Source: Reyranella humidisoli
GTDB taxonomy: Bacteria; Pseudomonadota; Alphaproteobacteria; Reyranellales; Reyranellaceae
DNA length: 64,000 nucleotides
Direction: 5' to 3'
Assembly (NCBI RefSeq): GCF_019039055.1
Contig: NZ_JAHOPB010000001.1
Span: 682,001-746,000, forward strand
Every line of letters begins with the position of its first letter. The first letter of the stretch is position 1. The notes under the pieces were generated by a model that searched no databases, was not told where the DNA came from, and was given only the letters and a program-made list of their open reading frames with translations. Shown here piece after piece: positions 6,218 through 57,739 of this stretch. The position numbers and the translations under genes were made by a program.

Positions 6218-7190
6218 CTCTCGTCTCCAGAAGAACGGCATCGGCCACTTGCCGCGCCAGCCAGGGCGCGAGCAGGAAACCATGCCGGAAAAGACCGTTG
6301 GCGTGCAGCACGCGGCCCTTGCGCCTGATGCACGGCAGGTTGTCGGGAAAGGTCGGCCGCAGGTCGGCGCCCAGCTCGACGATCTCGGCCTCGCCGAACG
6401 CCGGGTGCAGCGTGTAGGCCGCGTTCAGCAACTCGATCGCCGAACGCACGCTGACGGCGCGGCGTTCCTCGCTTTCGATCATGGTGGCGCCGATCATGAA
6501 GATGCCGTCGCCGCGCGGCACGATGTAGAGCGGGATGCGCGGATGCAGCATCCGCACCGGCCGCGCCAGCGACACGTCGCTGGTCCGCACGACGATCATC
6601 TCGCCGCGCACGCCGCGCAGGTCGGGCAGTTCGTCACGCGCGGCCAGACCGCGGCAATCGACGACGAAGTCCGAGCGGGCCTCGGAGGGCTTCACGTCGA
6701 CGCCGAACCGGATCGGTACGCCGCGCGCCGCGAGACCGGCCGCGAGCGCCGCCAGCGCCTGGCGCGGTTCGAGATGGGCCTCGTCGGCAAAGAACAGCGC
6801 ACGGCGGAAGCGGCCGGCGAGATCGGGTTCGAGCGCGGCGATTCCGTCGGCGTCGAGCCATTCGTGGCGCTCGGTCCGGGAGGCAAAGCGTGTGAGGTCG
6901 GCGGCGTCGCGCGGCGGCGTCAGCACGAGGCTGCCCTTCGAGACGGTGCCGGGAAAATGCTGGCGCCACCAATCGATCGACGGCTCGCCCAGCCGGGCGA
7001 CGATCTCATCGGTGGTCGCCCGTTCGCACCAGGGCGCCAGCATGCCGCCCGCCATCCACGAGCAGGCACCTTCGCCGAGATGGGCGGCACGCTCCAGCAC
7101 CTCGACGGCCACGCCACGCGCGGCAAGCTCCGTCGCACAGGCAAGGCCTGCGACGCCGGCTCCGATGATTGTTACGACAGGTCGATCCAA
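6186..7190 (-). CDS. thiO: Glycine oxidase / FAD-dependent thiamine oxidoreductase
   Basis: ThiO oxidises glycine to the iminoacetate used by ThiG. The 334-residue protein opens with the FAD dinucleotide loop IIGAGVAGLACATELA and the ELAARG...VLE ribose-binding acid; it has DAO-type motifs (GMLAPWCE, LYIVPRGDG, LRPTFPDNLPCI, HANGLFRHGFLLAP). I place the start at a TTG (7190) because GGGAG lies six bases upstream and because upstream in-frame ATG/TTG codons fall inside the TPP aptamer. It is the first gene of thiOSGE-thiF. Confidence 0.92.
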   Translation of the reverse strand: MDRPVVTIIGAGVAGLACATELAARGVAVEVLERAAHLGEGACSWMAGGMLAPWCERATTDEIVARLGEPSIDWWRQHFPGTVSKGSLVLTPPRDAADLTRFASRTERHEWLDADGIAALEPDLAGRFRRALFFADEAHLEPRQALAALAAGLAARGVPIRFGVDVKPSEARSDFVVDCRGLAARDELPDLRGVRGEMIVVRTSDVSLARPVRMLHPRIPLYIVPRGDGIFMIGATMIESEERRAVSVRSAIELLNAAYTLHPAFGEAEIVELGADLRPTFPDNLPCIRRKGRVLHANGLFRHGFLLAPWLARQVADAVLLETRDADIPERRHA

Positions 7191-7199
7191 CGCTGACTC

Positions 7200-7300
7200 C
7201 CGTTCCTTCGCCGGCATGACCCGGATCAGGTTCAAAGGGTTCAGCCGCTAAGGCTGTCTCAGCCCGTCTCCCACAGGAAGATCAGGCACCCCTCGGACGC
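7200..7300 (-). promoter_or_regulatory. TPP riboswitch (THI element)
   Basis: Read on the minus strand, the aptamer core is clear: CCGAGGGGTGCC, then GGGCTGAGA, then CCTTTGAACCTGATCCGGG and TCATGCCGGCGAAGGAACGG. These match the conserved CTGAGA and GAACCTGATC-GG-T-ATNCCGGCGNAGGGA portions of TPP riboswitches. The thiO ribosome-binding site (GGGAG, 7197-7201) begins immediately after the closing helix, so thiamine pyrophosphate probably represses translation initiation, as is usual in proteobacteria. Confidence 0.95.
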
Positions 7301-7349
7301 CATCGAGAAAAGGGGATTGCCGCCCCCGATGTCAAGCCATGCAGTGCGC

Positions 7350-54476: not shown

Positions 54477-55574
54477 ATGGGTTTCAATTGCGGAATCGTC
54501 GGCCTGCCCAACGTCGGCAAGTCGACCCTGTTCAACGCGCTGACCGCCACGCAGGCGGCGCAGGCGGCCAACTATCCGTTTTGCACCATCGAGCCGAACG
54601 TCGGCCGCGTCGCCGTGCCCGATCCCCGGCTCGACAAGCTCGCGGCCATCGCGGGCTCGGCCAAGATCATCAACACCCAGCTCGAATTCGTCGACATCGC
54701 CGGTCTGGTGAAGGGCGCCTCCCGCGGCGAGGGGCTGGGCAACCAGTTCCTGGGCAACATCCGCGAGGTCGATGCGATCGTCCACGTGCTGCGCTGCTTC
54801 GAGGACGGCGACGTCACGCACGTGAGCGGCAAGGTCGATCCGGTGAGCGACGCCGAGGTCGTCGAGACCGAGCTGATGCTGGCCGACATGGACAGCCTTG
54901 AGAAGCGCCTGCCCAACCTCGAGAAGAAGGCCAAGGGCGGCGACAAGGAATCGGGCGCCGAGGTGCCGGTCGTGAAGAAGGCGCTCGACGCGCTGCGCGA
55001 TGGCAAGCCGGCCCGCGAGGCCAAGCTCACCGACGACGAGCGCGCGATCTTCGCCCGCCTGCAGCTCATCACCGCCAAGCCGATGATGTACGTGCTGAAC
55101 GTCGAGGAAAGCTCGGCCGCCACCGGCAACGAGCACAGCGCCAGGGCCGAGGCTTTCGCCACGTCGCGCGGCATGCCGTCGGTCGTGATCTCCGCCGCCA
55201 TCGAGGCCGAGGTGGCACAGCTCCCGGCCGAGGACCAGAGCGACTACCTGTCTTCGCTCGGCCTCGCGGAAACCGGCCTCGCCCGCGTCGTGCGCGCGGG
55301 CTACGCGCTGCTCGACCTCGTGACGTTCTTCACGGTGGGCCCGAAGGAAGCGCGCGCCTGGACGGTGCGCCGCGAAGCCACCGCACCGCAGGCGGCCGGC
55401 GTCATCCATACCGACTTCGAGAAGGGCTTCATCCGCGCCGAGACGATCGCCTTCGACGACTATGTCACGCTGAACGGCGAGTCCGGCGCACGCGATGCCG
55501 GCAAGCTCCGGCTCGAAGGCAAGGAATACGCCGTGAAGGACGGCGACGTATTTCATTTCAGGTTCAATGTCTGA
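54477..55574 (+). CDS. ychF: Ribosome-binding ATPase YchF/OLA1
   Basis: YchF is an Obg-related P-loop ATPase that binds ribosomes and the stress response machinery. The 365-residue protein has G1 GLPNVGKSTLFNALT, the switch FCTIEPNVGRV, G3 FVDIAGLVKGASRGEGLGNQFL, the NVEES-type G4 variant expected for ATP specificity, and a C-terminal TGS domain ending KDGDVFHFRFNV. It starts 3 bases after pth. Its last codons lie inside a 19-bp perfect palindrome. Confidence 0.97.
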   Translation: MGFNCGIVGLPNVGKSTLFNALTATQAAQAANYPFCTIEPNVGRVAVPDPRLDKLAAIAGSAKIINTQLEFVDIAGLVKGASRGEGLGNQFLGNIREVDAIVHVLRCFEDGDVTHVSGKVDPVSDAEVVETELMLADMDSLEKRLPNLEKKAKGGDKESGAEVPVVKKALDALRDGKPAREAKLTDDERAIFARLQLITAKPMMYVLNVEESSAATGNEHSARAEAFATSRGMPSVVISAAIEAEVAQLPAEDQSDYLSSLGLAETGLARVVRAGYALLDLVTFFTVGPKEARAWTVRREATAPQAAGVIHTDFEKGFIRAETIAFDDYVTLNGESGARDAGKLRLEGKEYAVKDGDVFHFRFNV

Positions 55575-55602
55575 GGCGCCTCAGCGCCTCAGACATTGAA
55601 CC
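55561..55602. repeat. Perfect 19-bp-arm palindrome at the end of ychF
   Basis: Positions 55561-55579 and 55584-55602 are exact reverse complements separated by CTCA. The left arm contains the last four sense codons and stop of ychF, so the right arm is an inverted copy of the end of the gene. It should form a very stable hairpin in the mRNA. No T-run follows, so if it terminates transcription it does so unconventionally. Confidence 0.9.
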
Positions 55603-55666
55603 GGCGAACGGCAGCGCTTGTCATCAAGCACGAGAGTTCGCACCGCGCAGAATGGATAAGAACCCT

Positions 55667-55789
55667 CTTCCCCATTCAGATGGGGAAGTGCCCCGTCATA
55701 CGGGGCGATGGGGTCATGCGCGTCGGCACCGACCACTCTGACCCCTCCGTCGGCGATTACGCCGACACCTCCCCATTTGAATGGGGAGG
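55667..55789. repeat. Array of five consecutive hairpins
   Basis: Five inverted repeats follow one another with 1-3 unpaired bases between them: CTTCCCCAT/ATGGGGAAG (55667-55688), GCCCCGT/ACGGGGC (55690-55706), GGGGTC/GACCCC with an inner GTCGG/CCGAC (55710-55745), GTCGGCG/CGCCGAC (55749-55766) and CCTCCCCATT/AATGGGGAGG (55768-55789). The array lies between convergent ychF and phoX-like genes. It resembles a composite repetitive element; a degenerate relative of the last hairpin is at 12911. Confidence 0.88.
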
Positions 55790-55807
55790 CAAGCACGGAG
55801 TCCGTCG

Positions 55808-57739
55808 CTACGTACCGATCGTCCCCCCGCCCTTCTTCGTGATCGCGATCACCGACGGCCGCGGCGGCATGCCGTCCTTGAAGTCGGGCCAGCGCGTCGA
55901 GGGCTTCTCGTAGCTCGAGCCGCGATCCTCGCCGGGATGCTGGATGGCGAGGAACAGCGTCTTGTCGTCCGGCGTGAAGATCGGCCCGCACACTTCGGCG
56001 CCCGTCGGCGCCTGATAGAAGCAGCGCGTCAGCGCCCGGCCGAAGCCCACCGTGTCGGCGGCATAGAGGCCGTCGGCGATGCCGGCGGCGGAAGGGCCGC
56101 CGTCGGTCGCGATCCAGATGCGGCCCTTGCTGTCGAAGGCGATGTTGTCGGGACAGCTCAGCCAGCCATTCTCCGAGGTCGCGCGATGATAGCGGGCGCC
56201 GGCGTCCTGGCCGGGCTTGCCGCCCAGCAGGAAGATCGACCAGGTGCCTTCCGGCGCGGCATGGTCGCCGTCCTTGGGCGCGATCTCGAGGATATGGCCA
56301 TGATCGTTCGAGGCCCGCGGATTGGCCTTGTCGACCTGGTCGGGCTTGCGCCGGCCGTTGTTGGTCAGCACGACATAGACGCGGCCGTTGACCGGATTGG
56401 TTTCGATATCCTCCGGCCGGTCCATCGGCGTCGCCTTGAGCAGGTCGGCGGCCAGCCGCGTCCTCACCAGCACGTCGCCCTGGGTTACGAAGCCGTTCGT
56501 GGCCGTCAGCGGCCCCTGCCCCTGGACCAGCGGCAGCCACTCGACCTTGCCGTCGGCATCGAAACGCGCGACCGAGAGCGTGCCCTCGTCCAGCAGGTTC
56601 CTGTTGGACGCCCGATCGTTCGGGTTCCACGGCTTGGACGTGACAAACCGGTATACATATTCGAACCGCTCGTCGTCGCCGCTGTAGAACACCACACGGC
56701 CGTCCTTCGCCAGCGCGTAGGTGCAACCCTCATGCTTGAAGCGGCCGAGCGCGGTGCGCTTGATCGGCACTGCCGCGGGATCGTAGGGATCCGTCTCGAC
56801 CACCCAGCCGAACCGGTTGGGCTCGTTCGGTTCCTTGTCGAAGTTGAAGCGGTCGACATGCTGGCCCCAGGCATTGGTCGCCTTGGCCACTCCGTAGCGC
56901 TTGCCGAGCTCGGTATCGGCCAACCGCGCCGCGTCGCCATCGAAGTAGAAGTTGAAATTCTCCTCGCAGGTCAGCCACGTGCCCCAGGGCGTGCTGCCGC
57001 CGGCGCAATTGCCGAACGTGCCCAGCACGCGCGTTCCCGTGGGATCGGCGGACGTCTTCATCTTGTCGTGCCCAGCGGCGGGGCCTGAAATCTCCATCGG
57101 TGTCGTCGCGGTGAGACGGCGCGCGAACCTGCTGTCGGGCACGACTTTCCAGCCGGCGCCCTCGCGCACGATCTCGACGATCGCACCGCCGACCGACGCC
57201 ATCTCGACCGCGACCTGCTCCCGCGTGGCCTTGAGCGCGGCGCCGCGACCGGCGCCGAGGCCGGGAAACATGAGGTTGGCGTTCGTGTACTCGTGGTTGG
57301 CGACCATCAGGAAGCGGTCGCCGCTGCGGCTGCCGGCCGGCATCGGGTAGAGGCCGAGATAGTCGTTGTTGTAGCCGAACCGCTTCTCCTGCTCCGCAGC
57401 CGTCAGAGCCGCCGGATCGAAAGCCGCGCCGCCGCCGATGAGGGGATCGCCCCAGCGGATCAGCACCTGCATCTTGTAGCCTTCGGCGACATGCTGCGTG
57501 TCGTCGAGCGTGTGCGCGAGTTCCTTGAACGTGAGCGTCGAGGGACCGTTCACCTGGGCCTGCGCGTCGGTGCTGGCGAACGGGCTGCCGAGCGAGGCGG
57601 CGACGCTCACGCCTGCGAGACCGCGCAACGCGTCGCGCCGGCTGAGGCGCCGCTCGATCAAATCGCCGATCGACGGCTCGGTACTGGCATTCACGCCGAT
57701 ATCGTCGGGATCGATGAAGTCATCGCTGTGCGCGGCCAT
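55808..57739 (-). CDS. PhoX-family secreted phosphatase (DUF839)
   Basis: A 643-residue protein. The N terminus contains a Tat signal (RRLSRRDALRGLAGVSVAASLG), which fits export of folded, metal-loaded PhoX enzymes. Mature motifs include MVANHEYTNANLMFPG, GTFGNCAGGSTPWGTWLTCEENF, FGWVVETDPYDP, ALGRFKHEG, RFEYVYRFVT and SCPDNIAFDSKGRIWIATDG. PhoX enzymes are calcium/iron phosphomonoesterases acting in the periplasm. It diverges from a phytase-like gene, supporting a role in organic phosphate use; no clear Pho box was seen. Confidence 0.88.
   Translation of the reverse strand: MAAHSDDFIDPDDIGVNASTEPSIGDLIERRLSRRDALRGLAGVSVAASLGSPFASTDAQAQVNGPSTLTFKELAHTLDDTQHVAEGYKMQVLIRWGDPLIGGGAAFDPAALTAAEQEKRFGYNNDYLGLYPMPAGSRSGDRFLMVANHEYTNANLMFPGLGAGRGAALKATREQVAVEMASVGGAIVEIVREGAGWKVVPDSRFARRLTATTPMEISGPAAGHDKMKTSADPTGTRVLGTFGNCAGGSTPWGTWLTCEENFNFYFDGDAARLADTELGKRYGVAKATNAWGQHVDRFNFDKEPNEPNRFGWVVETDPYDPAAVPIKRTALGRFKHEGCTYALAKDGRVVFYSGDDERFEYVYRFVTSKPWNPNDRASNRNLLDEGTLSVARFDADGKVEWLPLVQGQGPLTATNGFVTQGDVLVRTRLAADLLKATPMDRPEDIETNPVNGRVYVVLTNNGRRKPDQVDKANPRASNDHGHILEIAPKDGDHAAPEGTWSIFLLGGKPGQDAGARYHRATSENGWLSCPDNIAFDSKGRIWIATDGGPSAAGIADGLYAADTVGFGRALTRCFYQAPTGAEVCGPIFTPDDKTLFLAIQHPGEDRGSSYEKPSTRWPDFKDGMPPRPSVIAITKKGGGTIGT

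Follow-up and report, generated by a model that had tools for sequence, protein, structure and literature searches.

A five-hairpin intergenic element of Reyranella humidisoli belongs to a dispersed repeat family whose inverted modules bracket DUF559 genes

The convergent genes ychF and phoX of Reyranella humidisoli are separated by a tightly packed array of inverted repeats, which raises the question of what kind of sequence this array represents and what agent could have placed it there. A preliminary description had reported that five hairpins occupy positions 55667-55789 of the window (the whole 64,000-nt stretch of contig NZ_JAHOPB010000001.1 that was analyzed), with ychF on one side and phoX on the other. 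Inverted-repeat analysis confirms both statements, in that five hairpins, here numbered H1 to H5, fill this interval exactly and the two flanking genes converge upon it. Among the named records listed, the closest YchF is 88% identical and comes from a Rhodospirillales metagenome assembly, in a comparison that may omit near relatives; it points to an alphaproteobacterial source.

Architecture of the element

The features to which we refer are as follows, in window coordinates.

54477-55574, plus strand: ychF (TIGR00092), the convergent left neighbor
55658-55718, plus strand: left half-module ("type A"), 68.7 bits with the module model R1, including a degenerate outer flank (consensus GAATCACTTK)
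55667-55688, plus strand: H1, outer hairpin CTTCCCC-ATTCAGAT-GGGGAAG, strands 1 and 2 of a triplex-type motif, defined by inverted repeat and covariation
55690-55706, plus strand: H2, variable hairpin G-CCCCG-TCATA-CGGGG-C, an enlarged second loop, defined by covariation
55707-55713, plus strand: third purine strand GATGGGG, which mirrors strand 2 with T allowed for A
55710-55745, no strand assigned: H3, inner arms GGGGTCA (55710-55716) and TGACCCC (55739-55745), enclosing 22 nt (55717-55738)
55737-55798, minus strand: right half-module ("type B"), 76 bits with R1, including its outer flank
55742-55748, minus strand: third purine strand of the right half, GGAGGGG
55749-55766, minus strand: H4, variable hairpin GTCGGCG/CGCCGAC, defined by covariation
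55768-55789, minus strand: H5, outer hairpin CCTCCCC-ATTCAAAT-GGGGAGG, defined by inverted repeat and covariation
55808-57739, minus strand: phoX (PF05787), the convergent right neighbor

The hairpins had been taken to be all different in sequence, which proves incorrect. H1 and H5, which constitute terminal inverted repeats of the kind expected of a miniature inverted-repeat element (MITE), are inverted copies of one hairpin whose arms are 91% complementary over 22 nt, H2 and H4 both represent the variable hairpin, and the pairing of the two inner arms produces H3. The element consists of two copies of one module of ~60 nt, arranged head to head. Perfect stems of at least 6 bp, in five hairpins, account for 78 of its 123 positions; the maximum among 1552 other 123-nt segments of the 64 kb is 50 such positions, in two hairpins, and 500 single-base shuffles attain at most 38. 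Folded as RNA, positions 55640-55815 yield a predicted energy of -90.9 kcal/mol (z -7.35), and this minimum-energy fold pairs H1 with H5 as one long stem. Copies such as L102 and L112, however, have both arms of one outer hairpin altered while the other outer hairpin is not, and changes of this type between copies favor local hairpins over the long H1-H5 stem.

The proposal that the interval specifies a structured small RNA is unsupported. No Rfam model matches it above its gathering score, the best candidate being Chlorobi-1 with 18.3 bits against a required 50, and a structured RNA was rejected on this basis; in addition, the purine third strand is a DNA-type feature according to PMC4666352. 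The 30 mismatched positions in the variable hairpins, which include 10 G-T and 5 A-C oppositions, do not discriminate between RNA and DNA. The sub-threshold Chlorobi-1 match lies at 55731-55792 on the minus strand (E 0.011), and elsewhere in the window a TPP riboswitch is recognized at 7186-7303 on the minus strand with 71.3 bits.

The unit of the repeat is the half-element. Eighty-three half-modules, drawn from this genome and from related loci, exhibit one order of parts, namely an outer hairpin (CYTCCCC..GGGGARG), the dinucleotide TG, the variable hairpin, and the sequence GRWGGGGTC; the model R1 comprises 63 positions. Covariation between copies, a check that the preliminary description had recommended, is present in the variable hairpin. 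There are 53 distinct sequences of this hairpin among the 83 modules, and 332 of the 362 opposed positions in its arms pair, a share that falls to 60% (sd 2.7, maximum 70%) once 3′ arms are exchanged among hairpins. In the model alignment, which leans to the structure, 94.1% of the variable-hairpin cells pair, compared with 79.8% after shuffling and at most 59.1% when the arms are slid, and changes on both sides occur in 258 cells versus 86 on shuffling. One orthologous pair of loci (L098 and L012) displays the replacement in place of a G-C pair by A-T. As pairing is retained despite 53 sequences and is accompanied by compensatory changes, the sequence of the stem is nearly free while its complementarity is conserved, and a hairpin of this type hints that the shape of the DNA, and not its sequence, is what is recognized.

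Strand 2 of the outer hairpin is mirrored by the purine run that follows the variable hairpin. This third strand agrees with stem position 6 in 102 of the 106 modules that were parsed (from a total of 123), a C-G pair being accompanied by G in the third strand in 83 modules (A in 3) and a T-A pair by A in 19 (G in 1); at position 5, A or T is tolerated. Most of the variation in the third strand is a single split between the two module types and therefore represents few independent events. Both halves of the window element exhibit the three-strand layout of hairpin strands 1 and 2 plus a mirrored third strand.

A comparable arrangement is found in the triplex motif known as TM, BoxC, or PIT, in which, as PMC4666352 describes it, a G/C-rich pyrimidine-purine hairpin is followed by a mirror-repeat purine third strand (CCCTCTCCC..GGGAGAGGG..GGGTGAGGG are examples from E. 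coli). Those motifs are likewise intergenic and present in many copies at sites that are unstable between strains, and five inverted pairs in E. coli each combine a type A with a type B motif (PMC4666352), as does the element described here. The two differ in the second loop, which is a 17- to 18-nt hairpin with freely varying, compensated stems in our modules and a TTA/CCG-like sequence in the E. coli motifs (TMECO). The ITxF rule stated in that source limits both loops to 1-6 nt, whereas the H1 loop measures 8 nt (4 nt if its inner pairs form) and the second loop is the entire variable hairpin. Judged by its sequence, the module layout is of the intrastrand triplex (BoxC/PIT) type, in which the enlarged second loop is here a hairpin. 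The modules also depart from TM/BoxC/PIT in residing at the 3′ ends of genes, in occurring mostly as dimers, and in their linkage to DUF559.

Copy number, placement, and turnover

The suggestion that the array is a composite mobile repeat is supported by its distribution. A search with a 161-nt query returned copies dispersed in this genome and across its genus, with 67 matches in the genome itself (some of which represent one place on both strands); of the 75 family genomes searched, 62 are matched, this one included. All 62 belong to one genus, and none of the 10 genomes from the other four genera of the family is matched. These copies rule out a local accident.

Within the window and the fetched loci of this genome, R1 detects at least 123 modules at E<=1e-6, which is a lower bound obtained from 150 scored candidates. 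They occupy 68 places, including that of the window pair, with 50 arranged head to head, 5 tail to tail, and 13 as single modules, if the two modules around DUF559 in locus L209 are entered as two singles. Leaving the window pair aside, the R1 matches of the other 49 head-to-head pairs are spaced at -4 nt (18 pairs), 3-19 nt (29 pairs), or 79-80 nt (2 pairs). The window copy occupies a convergent site; gene context at the 67 remaining places, as assigned by a rough GC3-based ORF caller, is convergent in 30, tandem in 33, divergent in 3, and within an ORF in 1, and the places lie a median of 11 nt from a gene 3′ end. Such placement would suit the bidirectional barrier to transcription that the preliminary description had suggested. 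Divergent sites are fewer than a 20% share would predict (p 0.0003, where the 20% is an assumption). The single intragenic case (L120, 1420-1543) is an element inside a 2.4-kb ORF called by the same rough method and might represent an in-frame insertion.

Comparison of orthologous sites reveals some that are empty or otherwise filled. At the ychF-phoX site, the six close relatives that are readable (L136, L137, L140, L142, L143, and L145) hold other hairpin repeats, and nothing more than a short gap is present in L147, L153, and L156, which are more distant; this count leaves out L138, L139, L144, and other minus-strand loci, and L141 and L146 stop at contig ends. Among 11 relatives at the L113 site, one (L173) carries the same element, two (L172 and L174) carry half an element joined to another repeat, and the remainder hold other repeats or remnants. 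At the L104 site the element is present in 2 of 10 orthologous loci (L182 and L184), in both cases with another repeat inserted between its halves, three loci (L176, L177, and L185) are without a recognizable repeat, and the other five, among which L179 is cut by a contig end, contain other hairpin sequence; the paralogous match L186 is excluded from this count. The sites thus compared swap hairpin repeats quickly. No target-site duplication was recognized by eye at the sites compared with relatives.

Several other repeats occur at these sites. One of them, ..GGCGCTCCCGGACATCGC..GCGATGTCC.. with its variants, lies between element halves or is joined to half elements, creating mosaics (L113, L117, L172, L174, L182, and L184). 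Two further hairpin families, CTCATCCTGAGGAG..GTCTCGAAGGATGGG and GTCCTGAGCGAAGCGAAGGACC, fill the same 3′-end sites in relatives at the L113 and L104 positions (loci L165, L168, L169, L171, L175, L178, L180, and L183). The 3′ end of ychF is itself part of a perfect 19-bp palindrome (55561-55602) that covers the last codons and the stop codon. In the six relatives readable at the ychF-phoX site its arms co-vary with few mismatches, and the stop codon (TGA, TAA, or TAG) varies with them; this palindrome may act as a stop-codon-coupled terminator. Farther behind ychF, another hairpin (55604-55641, with 17-nt arms that are 71% matched) is kept in the same six relatives.

Beyond the genus, R1 modules were found under stricter filters in 17 of 289 genomes of the class, 3 of the 17 being from this genus, and in 9 of 30 genomes reached via named loci, with 21 matches in Asticcacaulis aquaticus and 11 in Tardiphaga robiniae.

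DUF559 genes and the modules around them

Paired modules in this genome enclose at most 80 nt, whereas those at L209 (the same locus as L280) surround a 391-nt stretch that contains a DUF559 open reading frame. The R1 modules on its two sides score 62.1 and 62.0 bits, and the encoded protein matches PF04480 (DUF559) with 138.1 bits against a gathering cut-off of 20.6.

DUF559 was found in 50 of the 65 genomes of the genus, and its genes are associated with the modules. At 30 genus loci, each the best match of one genome, R1 modules in plus and then minus orientation lie within 250 nt on both sides in 20, on one side in 6, and on neither in 4. We also scanned for the three-strand motif by a rule of our own definition that allows a single mismatch each in stem and third strand. 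Inverted motifs within 330 nt on both sides, with the hairpin outside, were detected at 44 of 50 genus loci (the 30 best matches plus 20 picked by hand, and so not a random sample), at 19 of 29 class loci (best matches), and at 6 of 15 plasmid records (picked by hand from 45, with L361-L364 outside the count). The same arrangement was observed at none of 69 ychF loci with full flanks (19 of them from this genus; one side only in 5), at none of six Y1_Tnp loci, and at none of 626 positions to which the scan was slid along the window (one side only in 6 on the left and 7 on the right). The 50 genus loci represent 30 neighborhoods, 29 of which have at least one locus with the inverted two-sided motif. 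An inverted-repeat score of 18 or more was obtained at 47 of 50 genus, 17 of 29 class, and 7 of 15 plasmid loci, and in the controls at 0 of 69 ychF loci and at 3 of 1565 slides, all at one place.

In a class sample of 240 genomes, taken as G000, G051, G071, and G075-G311 (with which the count fits exactly), full-length DUF559 is present in 13 of 13 genomes bearing R1 modules versus 44 of 227 others, in a comparison that carries no correction for kinship and in which two of the 13 are from this genus. Protein similarity and flank similarity correlate within the genus in a Mantel test (r -0.51, 0 of 2000 permutations), and in the class this correlation is absent (r -0.10, 301 of 2000), right modules that overlap the ORF end being cut off in both calculations. 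In only 22 of the 50 genus loci does the left flank find its best partner in the right flank of the same locus, which ranks among the best five in 33, relatives having module types in common. DUF559 occurs where no match to the element was detected in G019 and G030, and the DUF559 genes of G026 and G035 are matches of E 5e-4 only.

The 47 aligned DUF559 proteins, chosen from 82 that were parsed, retain the residues E16, W20, F33-R34-R35, D45-F46, E56, D58-G59, R85, and W87, among which E16, D45, E56, and D58 are invariant acidic residues of the catalytic type. The predicted structure (mean pLDDT 80.5) was compared with known structures using Foldseek, which matched it to the DUF559 protein 3hrl (E 1.6e-8), to I-Bth0305I (E 1.7e-4 and 6.0e-4; profile match E 0.0076), to the restriction enzyme PvuRts1I (E 0.008), weakly to Vsr (E 0.066), and also to mitoribosomal proteins (E 0.01-0.15). 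DUF559 is predicted to be a Vsr-like PD-(D/E)XK endonuclease. Its fold is common to the catalytic domain of I-Bth0305I (PDB 3r3p), a homing endonuclease entered in the PDB as a "Mobile intron protein", whereas the DUF559 gene sits between hairpin repeats in intergenic DNA. Values of dN/dS for L280 against four copies of the same neighborhood range from 0.11 to 0.24, which points to purifying selection on the gene. A role in anti-phage defense was set aside, as PADLOC returned only matches of E 0.03-0.06, to two DUF559 proteins.

Candidate agents of dispersal

We infer from this association that DUF559 mobilizes the repeats, and the window element is probably a non-autonomous, MITE-like derivative of a DUF559 element, with ends that would be recognized and spread by the DUF559 protein. 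The full-length form would be a DUF559 gene between modules of the same kind, where the window copy has 22 nt between its inner arms; DUF559-bearing copies, which might be the mobile autonomous relatives that a MITE calls for, are found. In the mechanism that we propose, DUF559 would recognize folded single-stranded ends, either hairpin or triplex, and would nick or cut DNA such that the element is copied to new sites, either in the manner proposed for RAYTs and REPs or via repair of the homing type. Loss of the gene by deletion would generate short dimers moving in trans, and copies would persist mainly just behind stop codons, where they may do the least harm or may aid in ending transcripts. 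To our knowledge, no carrier of BoxC/PIT/triplex-type repeats was previously known. A literature search covering mainly journals outside subscription found no link of DUF559 to palindromic or triplex repeats. DUF559 genes bracketed by inverted triplex-type modules are new here and make the question of the carrier directly testable, including in E. coli K-12.

It is also conceivable that the modules are ordinary 3′-end repeats that act as bidirectional terminators, mRNA 3′-end protectors, or insulators, and that DUF559 is a passenger, either surviving best when they insulate it or inserting at the H3 loop of dimers. The placement of modules directly after stop codons agrees with this explanation, as does the presence of other hairpin families at the same sites in relatives, since any hairpin repeat might then serve, and an unrelated repeat has also been inserted between halves (L113, L117, L182, and L184). 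We nevertheless judge it unlikely: DUF559 lies between inverted modules in 29 of 30 neighborhoods, Y1_Tnp genes, with other repeats around them, do so in none of six cases, and every one of the 13 module-bearing genomes of the class sample has DUF559. Moreover, a pattern scan found no U-tract terminator within 55667-55789, its sole site being at 55529-55545, and earlier work cited in PMC4666352 detected neither promoter nor terminator activity for the E. coli motif.

Alternatively, DUF559 might be a Vsr-like repair nuclease that tolerates or repairs triplex or hairpin damage and that carriers of the repeats keep, its linkage to them arising as the gene spreads via recombination between repeats. 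Such a role would suit the Vsr-like fold (weak as the match to Vsr itself is) and the purifying selection on the gene, and the triplex motif has been tied to genome instability (PMC4666352). The DUF559 protein VsrA of Caulobacter, which works with a DNA methyltransferase and the SOS response, is proposed to be a mismatch-repair enzyme in PMC12907096, and this proposal counts against a mobilizing function for DUF559. A host repair gene, however, would be expected at one or a few loci and not in 30 neighborhoods among 50 genus loci, and one genome (G047) has nine DUF559 matches, several of them partial, so that we regard this explanation as quite improbable.

An IS transposase, as for classical MITEs, or a RAYT might instead move the modules, with DUF559 incidental, but this is scarcely credible. 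The terminal inverted repeats, the size, and the dispersed occurrence of the modules recall MITEs, 33 of the 65 genus genomes contain Y1_Tnp genes, and the plasmid DUF559 locus of Sinorhizobium meliloti pSymB (L353) adjoins an ISRm16 transposase gene, but Y1_Tnp has no match in this genome or in element-bearing relatives such as G010, G017, G021, G025, G046, and G066, six fetched Y1_Tnp loci have no module, and it is DUF559 that the L209 pair encloses. Mobilization by RAYT was rejected on these grounds and because the Y1 loci have other repeats. Y1_Tnp genes do have inverted flanks (5 of 5 scored), composed of GGAGCGCGC.ACTCC... at L188 and L191 and of GGACCGCGG/GCGGACCTCC types at L189, L190, and L192; the GGAGCGCGC.ACTCC repeat also occurs at the ychF-phoX site of relatives (L137, L140, and L145). 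As Y1_Tnp is bracketed by repeats other than those of DUF559, the genus seems to hold parallel enzyme-repeat pairs.

In REPIN/RAYT systems, short non-autonomous dimers coexist with copies of the same repeat on either side of an enzyme gene, the enzyme being RAYT, an HUH Y1 transposase that is thought to copy REPs into new sites. The DUF559 family is similar in its dimers and in the position of an enzyme gene between like repeats, and differs in the enzyme, a DUF559 protein of the PD-(D/E)XK type. The modules have no GTAG at the base of the stem and no Y1_Tnp partner, as GTAG REPs and REPINs would, and their outer stem begins with paired CCT/AGG and lacks an unpaired tag. By comparison, the CGTC REPs in PMC3733652 have an unpaired CGTC, TGTC, or CCTC tag, a stem of 8-9 bp starting with A-T pairs, and a loop of 4-5 nt. 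CGTC and GTAG REPs resemble the modules in forming head-to-head dimers at convergent and unidirectional sites, mostly <20 bp from 3′ ends, and a further parallel is that the alphaproteobacterial CGTC REPs lack a known transposase (PMC3733652). Unlike these REPs, with their tag and single 8-9 bp stem, each module combines two hairpins with a third strand and has a nuclease as its partner.

A size of ~100-150 bp, terminal inverted repeats, and stable folds are shared with MITEs such as the CIR repeats, which are alphaproteobacterial and contain GANTC sites (PMC2229807); in the present family 17 of 83 modules have GANTC outside the hairpin and not in a loop. Also unlike MITE/CIR, our element has no recognized target-site duplication, and no IS relative of it was found. 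The GANTC sequences, which are sites of the CcrM type, occur within 15 nt outside the module ends in those 17 modules, the next three 15-nt bins holding 0, 3, and 1.

Some observations weigh against mobilization by DUF559, our preferred explanation. The inverted two-sided motif is missing from 10 of 29 class and 9 of 15 plasmid DUF559 loci, 14 of the 62 genomes of the genus in which blastn matched the element are without DUF559, and the loci examined include no empty site of a DUF559-bearing copy. A further case is that of E. coli, where the DUF559 gene of MG1655 is ycjD. Of 5426 E. coli genomes, 5372 match the ycjD region, as would be expected of a resident gene, and motifs are on its 3′ side only: in MG1655 the motif TMECO no. 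9 (PMC4666352) follows ycjD at a distance of 167 bp, a degenerate copy overlaps the ycjD stop codon, no motif was seen in the sequence inspected on the 5′ side, and motifs are likewise 3′ only in the E. coli loci L361 and L362. This resident character, together with the 3′-only motif, counts against the mobilization reading. So do the missing protein-flank correlation in the class, the low share of genus loci whose two flanks are best partners, the DUF559 genes of G019 and G030, the deviant arrangements at L357 and L348, and the inverted flanks of Y1_Tnp genes, although these consist of other repeats. In PMC4666352 no mobility gene is reported close to the TMECO sites, and its main text is without the words endonuclease, DUF, Vsr, and ycjD.

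Our analysis nevertheless suggests that a widespread class of bacterial repeats owes its dispersal to the DUF559 family. More tentatively, DUF559 with inverted triplex-type ends could be a third REP-mobilizing system beside RAYT/REPIN and IS/MITE, one that employs a homing-type PD-(D/E)XK nuclease and folded ends. The non-autonomous offspring of such a system would be the BoxC/PIT/triplex repeats found in proteobacteria, cyanobacteria, and deinococci, with those of E. coli among them, and ycjD would be its resident remnant in E. coli; we consider this possible. Related motifs flank DUF559 at L353 on pSymB, where the inverted-repeat score is 104, and also in Deinococcus (L348 and L363) and Pseudanabaena (L364). 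At L357 the motif has the reverse arrangement, at L348 the inverted repeats have the hairpin inside, and the DUF559 flanks at L267 and L276 have short second loops.
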